From assembly GCA_013112545.1 (NCBI GenBank), contig JABFGJ010000001.1:62001-126000 (forward strand): a stretch of 64,000 nucleotides of DNA, given 5' to 3'. This stretch comes from Bacteroidota bacterium (GTDB lineage: Bacteria; Bacteroidota; Bacteroidia; Flavobacteriales_E; Vicingaceae). Under the pieces are notes generated by a model. The model was not told where the DNA came from, made no database searches, and saw only the letters and a list, made by a program, of their open reading frames with translations. The translations under genes were made by a program, and so were the position numbers. Shown here piece after piece: positions 7,245-11,282 of this stretch (positions are counted from its first letter, which is position 1; each line of letters begins with the position of its first letter).

Positions 7245-8306
7245 CTAATCGGCCAAAATTGCTCCATTTTTATTGGCTAATTGTCCACAGGCAGCATCTA
7301 TATCTTTTCCTCGGCTTCTGCGAATATTAACCACCAGATTTTTACTTTCTAAATAAGCTGCAAAATCATCTACTTTAAGAACATCTGCTTGCTGAAACTC
7401 TCCATTATCAATTGGATTGTACTCAATGATGTTTATTTTGCATGGCACGTTTTTACAAAATTCAGCTAACTCTCTAGCGTCTTCAATTTGATCGTTGAAA
7501 TCTTTAAAAATAATGTATTCAAATGTAACCCGACTTCCAGTTTTCTCATAAAAATAACGCAATGCCTCAGCCAAAATCTCTAAATTATTTTGATCGTTAA
7601 TCGGCATGATTTTACTTCGTTTCTCATCATTAGCCGCATGAAGTGAAAGCGCAAGATTAAACTTCACCTCATCGTCGCCTAGCTTTTTAATCATTTTAGC
7701 AATGCCAGCCGTAGAAACCGTTATCCTTTTTGGTGACATGCCCAAGCCATCTTCTCCACAAATCATTTCTATGGATTTTAAAACCTGACTGTAATTCAAC
7801 AAGGGTTCACCCATTCCCATATAAACTATATTCGACAAGGGTCTTTGATAATACTTTTCTGCTTGTTCTTTAATGATGGCAACTTGATCATATATTTCAT
7901 CAAATTTGATATTTCGCATAAGCTTCAAGCGCCCAGTTCCACAAAATTTACAGGTTAAACTACAACCCACTTGCGAGGAAATACAAGCCGTCATTCGCTT
8001 TGTTGAAGGAATGAGCACCCCCTCTGTTATTCTACCATCTGCTAATTTAAAAGCATTTTTAATTGTCTTATCCTCGCTGATTTGTTCTTCAGCTATGGAC
8101 ACGGCGGGCAATTCAAAATGACTGTTTAAAAATTCTCTAGTTTGAATCGATAAATTGGTCATTACGTCAAAACTCCTAGCTGATTTTTTCCAAAGCCATT
8201 CATATAACTGCTTGGCACGAAATGCTTTTTCGCCATGCTCAACAAAAATGACTTTCAATTCTTCTAAGCTAAAATCTCGAATATTTTTTTTGACTACATT
8301 TTCCAT
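7245..8306 (-). CDS. rlmN: 23S rRNA (adenine2503-C2)/tRNA methyltransferase RlmN
   Basis: A radical-SAM dual-specificity methyltransferase that modifies A2503 of 23S rRNA and A37 of some tRNAs. Numbering from the ATG at 8304-8306, the [4Fe-4S] motif CxxxCxxC is C115, C119 and C122 (CSLTCKFCGTG). It also has the SAM-binding MGMGEPLLN, and the C-terminal cysteine that forms the methyl-transfer intermediate pair is C340 (AACGQLANK). A GTG two codons upstream (8312) could also serve, but ATG fits the family better. A perfect -7 box TAATTTTG (minus strand, 8312-8319) nearly touches the start, so the message may be leaderless. The tandem repeat array lies immediately upstream. Confidence 0.96.
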   Translation of the reverse strand: MENVVKKNIRDFSLEELKVIFVEHGEKAFRAKQLYEWLWKKSARSFDVMTNLSIQTREFLNSHFELPAVSIAEEQISEDKTIKNAFKLADGRITEGVLIPSTKRMTACISSQVGCSLTCKFCGTGRLKLMRNIKFDEIYDQVAIIKEQAEKYYQRPLSNIVYMGMGEPLLNYSQVLKSIEMICGEDGLGMSPKRITVSTAGIAKMIKKLGDDEVKFNLALSLHAANDEKRSKIMPINDQNNLEILAEALRYFYEKTGSRVTFEYIIFKDFNDQIEDARELAEFCKNVPCKINIIEYNPIDNGEFQQADVLKVDDFAAYLESKNLVVNIRRSRGKDIDAACGQLANKNGAILAD

Positions 8307-8353
8307 TGACACAAAATTAACCTTTATACCCTTAGTTCTAGAGTAGTTTTAAT

Positions 8354-8398: not shown

Positions 8399-9229
8399 TG
8401 TTCGACCCATTCGGGGTCGCAGATATACGCTAGGCTTATTCCATTTATAAATGTTTGATACCTTCGGTATCGGTTTGGTTCGCTGTTTAAGTAATTTGTG
8501 TTTTACAACTAAGATTTTATTCTAATATTAAGCAAACCATTAATCTCGAAGAGATTTCAGATTTATAATTATATGCAAACTAGCAGTGTTCGACCCCTTC
8601 AGGGTCGCAGATATACGCTAGGCTTATTCCATTTATAAATGTTTGATACCTTCGGTATCGCTTTGGTTCGCTGTTTAAGTAATTTGTGTTTTACAACTAG
8701 CTTTTACTCTAAAAAAAAGTAAATCATTAATCTCGAAGAGATTTCAGATTTACAATTATATGTAAACTAGCAGTGTTCGACCCCTTCGGGGTCGCAGTTG
8801 TATTCTAGGCTTATTCCGTTTATATATGTTGATACCTTCGGTATCGGTTTGATTCGCTGTTTAAGTAATTTGTGTTTTACAACAAAGCTTTTATTCTAAT
8901 ATTAAGCAAACCATTAATCTCGGAGAGATTTCAGATTTATAATTATATGTAAACTAGCAGTGTTCGACCCCATTCGGGGTCGCAGATATACGCTAGGCTT
9001 ATTCCATTTATAAATGTTGATACCTTCGGTGTCGGTTTGATTCGCTGTTTAAGTAATTTGTGTTTTACAACAAAGCTTTTATTCTAATATTAAGCAAACC
9101 ATTAATCTCGGAGAGATTTCAGATTTATAATTATATGCAAACTAGCAGTGTTCGACCCCTTTCGGGGTCGCAGATATAATCAAGGCTTATTCCGTTTATA
9201 AATGTTTGATACCTTCGGTGTCGGTTTTT
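8399..9229. repeat. Tandem array of 187-188 bp repeats, each with three short hairpins
   Basis: Fills the 957 bp gap between rlmN and ligA. Units start TGTTCGACCC at 8399, 8587, 8774, 8961 and 9149, so there are four full copies and one partial. Each full unit holds hairpin 1 (CGACCC...GGGTCG; 8403-8419, 8591-8607, 8778-8794, 8965-8982, 9153-9170), hairpin 2 (GATACC-TTC-GGTATC; 8457-8471, 8645-8659, 8831-8845, 9019-9033, 9208-9222) and hairpin 3 (AATCTC-GAA-GAGATT; 8542-8556, 8729-8743, 8916-8930, 9104-9118). The last copy ends before hairpin 3. Loops vary while stems stay paired. Hairpins 1 and 2 carry TTC loops on the plus strand and hairpin 3 a GAA/GGA loop, so it is inverted relative to them, as in REP/BIME clusters. 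No reading frame is maintained and no transposase is nearby. Confidence 0.93.
9208..9229 (+). terminator. Terminator-like hairpin plus T-run at end of repeat array
   Basis: Hairpin 2 of the last repeat (GATACC-TTC-GGTGTC, 9208-9222, one T-G wobble) is followed by GG and five T residues (9225-9229) on the plus strand. The equivalent hairpins in the other copies lack the T-run. It could end a plus-strand transcript of the array. The stem is only 6 bp, so confidence is low. Confidence 0.3.

Positions 9230-9269: not shown

Positions 9270-11282
<2,013 letters not shown>

Follow-up and report, generated by a model that had tools for sequence, protein, structure and literature searches.

What are the tandem hairpins that separate rlmN from ligA in this member of the Bacteroidota, and how might they have come to be there? 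The DNA analysed (the window) is a stretch of 64,000 nucleotides, corresponding to C1:62001-126000 of a 3.27-Mb assembly in 24 contigs. A sequence-only reading of this stretch had likened the hairpins to REP/BIME clusters, and this proved right in kind: the hairpins are inverted, other copies occur in the genome and a Y1 gene lies inside a sister array. The array can with good confidence be regarded as tandem copies of a non-autonomous, REP/BIME-like element, probably spread in trans by a TnpA of the TnpA_Y1 subclass 1.2.

The array between rlmN and ligA

The array is located between two minus-strand genes, rlmN (7245-8312; TIGR00048) and ligA (9270-11279; NF005932), both identified well above the NCBIfam cut-offs. 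TRF detected a single array at 8399-9227, with a period of 188, 4.4 copies, 92% matches and a score of 1402. The sequence-only reading had reported four full copies of 187-188 bp and one partial copy, which were recovered both by TRF and by inspection of the sequence, with unit starts at 8399, 8587, 8774, 8961 and 9149 reproducing the described periods of 188, 187, 187 and 188. The 14 hairpins of three types it had listed were also found (five of H1, five of H2 and four of H3), the chance expectation per window in pattern scans being 0.00 for the H1 and H2 patterns and 0.11 for the H3 pattern. Its variants were located as well, namely the H1 loops ATTCG, CTTCA, TTC, ATTC and TTTC, the GGA loops of H3 in copies 3 and 4 (8916 and 9104) and the GGTGTC form of H2 in two copies (9019 and 9208). 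Growth of the array by unequal exchange fits these shared loop and stem variants.

Since the array begins at H1 and ends at H2, the first H3 is missing. The partial first unit (8403-8471, plus strand) contains H1 at 8403-8419, CGACCC(ATTCG)GGGTCG, and H2 at 8457-8471, GATACC(TTC)GGTATC, with no clear H3. Four core units follow on the plus strand, with bit scores from a covariance model search of the own genome: unit 1 at 8542-8659 (H3 8542-8556, AATCTC(GAA)GAGATT; H1 8591-8607; H2 8645-8659; 120.8 bits), unit 2 at 8729-8845 (H3 8729-8743; H1 8778-8794; H2 8831-8845; 115.6 bits), unit 3 at 8916-9033 (H3 8916-8930, with the GGA loop; H1 8965-8982; H2 9019-9033, GGTGTC; 112.4 bits) and unit 4 at 9104-9222 (H3 9104-9118, with the GGA loop; H1 9153-9170; H2 9208-9222, GGTGTC; 120 bits). 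The core, of about 120 nt, is composed of a tagged H3 and a tagged H2 in inverted arrangement, their tags on the inner sides, around an untagged central H1 (CGACCCC..GGGGTCG). H2 and H3 thus represent a single type of tagged hairpin facing opposite ways, as the sequence-only reading had guessed from their orientation. In unit 1 the tag stands inverted to the right of H3 and as TTATAAATG to the left of H2. Another example is TTATAAATGT (8445-8454, plus strand), 5' of H2, where the distance from tag start to hairpin loop is 18 nt, the same geometry as that found beside TnpA subclass 1.2 genes. The inter-unit spacer (8472-8541, no strand assigned) spans about 70 bp and recurs with each copy; as the other arrays do not share it, homology extends over the core H3-H1-H2 (for example 8542-8659) and not over the 188-bp period.

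Folded as single-stranded DNA, the window units performed better than dinucleotide shuffles (z from -2.1 to -3.9), with z down to -6.2 for a unit on contig C2. In several of the single-strand folds the two inverted tags pair together and enclose H1. An Rfam search returned nothing near the gathering thresholds, by which a known RNA family, a riboswitch and a CRISPR repeat were excluded.

Other copies in the genome

The sequence-only reading had staked its interpretation on further copies, and about 26 units at about nine loci were found in the genome. With the window unit as a DNA query, a second array was detected at C2:31171-33263 (period 261 bp), together with weak matches to a third on C4 (period 211 bp). 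The covariance model R1, run on the own genome, recovered the arrays on C1, C2 and C4 as well as units, singly or in pairs, at C3:122970, C3:7163, C6:37538, C6:37749, C11:30220 and C14:64065. All lie outside predicted ORFs except the copy at C3:7163, which abuts or overlaps an ORF end, so that the family is intergenic and dispersed. The common part of the three arrays is the core only (about 118-150 nt), with unrelated spacers between the cores. An alignment of 15 cores has 95.8% paired cells and eight pairs changed on both sides; compensatory changes occur in all three helices, and the covariation score was reached in none of 500 shuffles. The claim of conserved pairing in the stems was therefore correct, with the covariation seen mainly between arrays.

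Two further repeats have been observed in this genome. A separate two-copy 188-bp tandem repeat (L035:5538-5918), whose consensus does not resemble the window unit, occurs near the two single C6 units, and a heptamer tandem repeat, CTTCTAA, is present in 16 copies with 93% matches (L034:5647-5759). Similar heptamer runs occur in an unrelated genome, G168 (L305:454-536).

The Y1 transposase

No RAYT transposase is encoded in the window, as had been stated, nor is any other Y1 transposase, and the IS200-like transposase predicted elsewhere was located in the sister array on C2. There, the sole PF01797 (Y1_Tnp) gene of the genome (C2:31429-31773, minus strand) is flanked to the left and right by units of the 261-bp array. 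Its 152-aa product matches PF01797 with 91.5 bits and NF033573 with 67.4 bits, above the cut-off of the latter, and the TnpA structures of ISDra2 and IS608 (PDB 2fyx, 2xm3); a match to NF047646 (E 2.3e-11) falls below the 80-bit cut-off of that model. The protein carries the motifs HIH, WQ and YVMNQKEHH, the last corresponding to the signature Y---Q--HH. Judged by these motifs and HMMs, it is an intact protein of the HUH/tyrosine type and belongs to TnpA_Y1 subclass 1.2, which Quentin et al. (2018, PMC6006769) characterised by the Y---Q--HH signature, the WQ motif and a median length of 148 aa. Among 97 intact subclass 1.2 proteins, the catalytic residues H54, H56, Y114 and Q118 and the WQ and HH motifs are invariant or nearly so; the class-2 motif Y---NP is absent, with YVMNQKEHH in the home protein and Q118 invariant in the 97. 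In the published classification, subclass 1.2 is entered as 'REP: no', and IS200 terminal structures are generally lacking (PMC6006769).

Tagged hairpins beside subclass 1.2 genes

Relatives of the transposase were taken from named genome contigs and from the phylum, giving 103 loci. Copies had been predicted in related genomes, and homologous units do adjoin the transposase genes of other genomes. The hairpins near the gene carry a 5' tag, summarised over the 103 loci as CTA(T/C)AAA(C/T)AT(G/T). Within 350 bp of the gene, the density of tagged hairpins is 1.27/kb, a value that includes the first loci, in which the tag was noticed by inspection; control densities were 0.04/kb for DNA 1.0-1.5 kb away, 0.02/kb for the interior of the genes and 0.01/kb for shuffled flanks, which amounts to an enrichment of about 30-fold in the flanks of the 103 genes. 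At 40 loci fetched after the tag had been defined, the density was 0.54/kb, with a tagged hairpin at 10 of the 40 genes. Flanks of class-2 RAYT genes from the same phylum have a similar hairpin density (2.78/kb), but the tag is found on only 1 of 38 hairpins there, compared with 89 of 207 at subclass 1.2 loci; a subclass 1.1 control comprised four loci only and was set aside as too few. A GT[AG]G foot stands beside 6 of the same 207 hairpins, against 89 for the CTAYAAA-type tag. The distance from tag start to loop was exactly 18 nt for 106 of the 111 tagged hairpins. A tagged hairpin is nearby in 41 of the 103 genes under the strict definition, and in 50 with a looser tag and a wider flank, while about 30% of the genes have no clear hairpin. 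Stem sequence and protein distance are correlated (Spearman 0.23, reached in 0 of 2000 permutations).

Some loci depart from the three-hairpin layout or have unusual neighbours. In L079 (G423) and L060, the unit is replaced by long runs of tagged hairpins, recurring about every 49-50 nt, that flank tnpA on each side or adjoin it, with stems alternating among a few sequences. In the relative Flavobacteriales H5_BAC5 (L038:1-5456, L185:45-6297; JABTUP010000009.1 / G024:C62), a subclass 1.2 tnpA and its hairpins stand inside a putative type V CRISPR-Cas locus, where by eye a putative cas12a lies on one side and cas4-cas1 on the other. A direct repeat of about 22 nt, GTTCGAAAGTTAGAAATA-like, is directly beside a tagged-hairpin unit at L308:510-600 (G193).

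Distribution among genomes

A generic tag-hairpin model of 33 nt (R2), whose paired percentage is biased since its members were chosen for pairing, was run on 148 Bacteroidota genomes. At least five matches were obtained in 23 of the 62 genomes that have a subclass 1.2 gene versus 6 of the 86 that lack one (p = 6e-6; the p-values are indicative, as the genomes are phylogenetically related and some supplied part of the model). The tagged hairpins are dispersed genome-wide, with a maximum of about 49 copies per genome. The six genomes that keep at least five of them with no detectable gene, five of which belong to one genus, mean that some families persist without the gene, and could reflect loss of the gene or a different driver. 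One such genome, G127, has 37 tagged hairpins and no detectable subclass 1.2 gene (L307, G127:C48:8500-10500), and others of its genus (f39/g95) behave likewise. With the three-hairpin model in 60 relatives, the gene was present in seven of the eight positive genomes (p = 0.007). Almost nothing was found in 60 relatives with the window unit as a DNA query, because the stems diverge, and a covariance model is therefore needed. The unrelated genome G168 has tandem arrays built from the same H1 and tag-hairpin modules at sites remote from the gene, so that array formation belongs to the system itself. Neither a transposition event nor an empty site was observed, and rlmN and ligA are not adjacent or syntenic in the relatives of the family.

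Alternative explanations

Two classes of stem, AATCCC-like and GA-type, point in opposite directions relative to the gene (15:1 versus 1:14 loci, p = 9e-7), and this orientation rule is also kept in the home genome, where H3 has the AATCTC stem and H2 the GATACC or GATGCC stem. Two distinct end hairpins in fixed opposite orientation to tnpA, with the gene often between H3-H1 and H1-H2, are what would be expected if the units were MITEs, that is, IS200-like elements with left- and right-type ends derived from a tnpA-bearing IS by internal deletion, instead of REP/BIMEs, and the transposase, being of class 1 and nearest to TnpA_IS200, would suit such an origin. Nonetheless, we consider this unlikely. 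The IS200/IS605 families are recognised by several near-identical complete IS copies, but a single gene copy is present here and between one and nine diverged copies in other genomes; no IS properties have been attributed to subclass 1.2 (PMC6006769), and many hairpins occur in the periodic runs of about 50 nt in L079 and L060 and not as paired ends. The difference between this explanation and a REP/BIME-like one is partly a matter of naming.

Less probable still is that the hairpins are ordinary regulatory structures, either intrinsic terminators or mRNA-stabilising stem-loops, tandemly duplicated by chance. Several copies do stand between convergent genes (on C2, C4, C3 and C11), and a simple scan of the array yields five terminator-like sites versus 0.7 expected. 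However, four of the five are on the plus strand, although both flanking genes are on the minus strand, and a good T run is present at 9206-9224 only. Termination as the primary function was rejected on account of strand and T runs, while a secondary role in termination is possible. Regulatory structures would also leave unexplained the fixed tag-to-loop distance, the association with the transposase and the orientation rule. An error of assembly, or a one-off local duplication without wider significance, is an extremely improbable origin for the array despite the 89-93% identity of its copies. Against it stand two further loci with homologous arrays of distinct sequence, dispersed single units and arrays of the same kind in other genomes; assembly duplication is unlikely because unit sequence, period and spacer all vary among the three arrays.

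Comparison with known systems

The REP/BIME-like element preferred here shares several features with the REP/BIME and RAYT systems (TnpA_REP class 2; E. coli, and the REPINs of Pseudomonas): short intergenic hairpins with a 5' tag in many dispersed copies, inverted pairs and tandem clusters (of 188, 261 and 211 bp in this genome), and a single Y1 HUH transposase gene that they flank, as in the REPtron layout. Nonetheless, the tag is CTAYAAAYAT(G/T) instead of GT[AG]G, an additional hairpin without a tag lies at the centre, and the transposase is of class 1 (Y---Q--HH) instead of class 2 (Y---NP). With neither a GTAG foot nor a class-2 transposase, the element is therefore a variant of REP/BIME and not a canonical REP. 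Subclass 1.2 as published agrees in its length of about 150 aa, its HIH, WQ and Y---Q--HH motifs, its low copy number and its occurrence in Bacteroidota, and differs in being listed without REPs, whereas a tagged-hairpin partner is found here (Quentin et al., 2018, PMC6006769). The IS200/IS605 elements (TnpA_IS200 subclass 1.1, such as IS608 and ISDra2) resemble the system in the HUH/Y1 domain, by sequence, in hairpins near the gene and in two end types of fixed orientation. They differ from it in their Y motif; in the present system the non-coding units are far more numerous than the gene, and no IS occurs in multiple identical copies. Hairpins that lack GTAG and lie close to a Y1 gene, Bacteroidota included, are also found among the 'atypical secondary structures' of TnpA_REP subclass 2.6 and class 3, which belong to other protein subclasses (Y---NP or Y---EQ). 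The CGTC-tagged palindromic repeats, likewise without GTAG and also reported in Bacteroidetes, have another tag and no reported flanking transposase (Di Nocera, 2013, PMC3733652). In a literature search for a Bacteroidetes REP family with a subclass 1.2 transposase, with subscription literature mostly outside its scope, only PMC6006769 and PMC3733652 were relevant, and neither the CTA(T/C)AAA(C/T)AT(G/T) tag nor a REP partner of subclass 1.2 was described in the literature so covered.

Proposed mechanism and significance

The association of the hairpins with the gene, their geometry, their orientation and their dispersal are direct observations. Mobility of the element, and binding and cleavage of its hairpins by TnpA, are suggested by analogy with TnpA_REP and IS200/IS605, the models for the proposed mechanism (PMC8266576). 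TnpA would bind the hairpins as single-stranded DNA, with the tag acting as a 5' foot or guide sequence in its choice of cleavage site, as in REP and IS200/IS605, and would disseminate the element in trans via single-stranded DNA of the lagging strand. Inserted copies, together with some local flank, may then be amplified by unequal exchange or replication slippage, and co-amplification of the flank would give rise to the locus-specific periods of 188, 261 and 211 bp.

More broadly, and with somewhat less assurance, we favour the view that subclass 1.2 drives a separate REP-like superfamily, characterised by the CTA(T/C)AAA(C/T)AT(G/T) tag in place of GTAG and by two end hairpins of fixed orientation, often with a central third. 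Such a superfamily would be widespread in Bacteroidota, with a few cases in Planctomycetota, KSB1 and other contigs, would have been missed for want of a GTAG foot, and would hold an intermediate position in evolution between IS200/IS605 (class 1, with left and right ends) and the domesticated REP/RAYT systems. The orphan subclass 1.2 transposase gains a likely substrate, and its function can be tested directly on a defined module of DNA, a 33-nt tagged hairpin with 18-nt spacing from tag to loop. For annotators, the tag provides a searchable signature of a common, unannotated intergenic repeat of Bacteroidota. The biology of REP/BIME elements would be widened beyond the GTAG tag and into this phylum, and a link is suggested between two-ended IS200-type transposons and domesticated REP systems.
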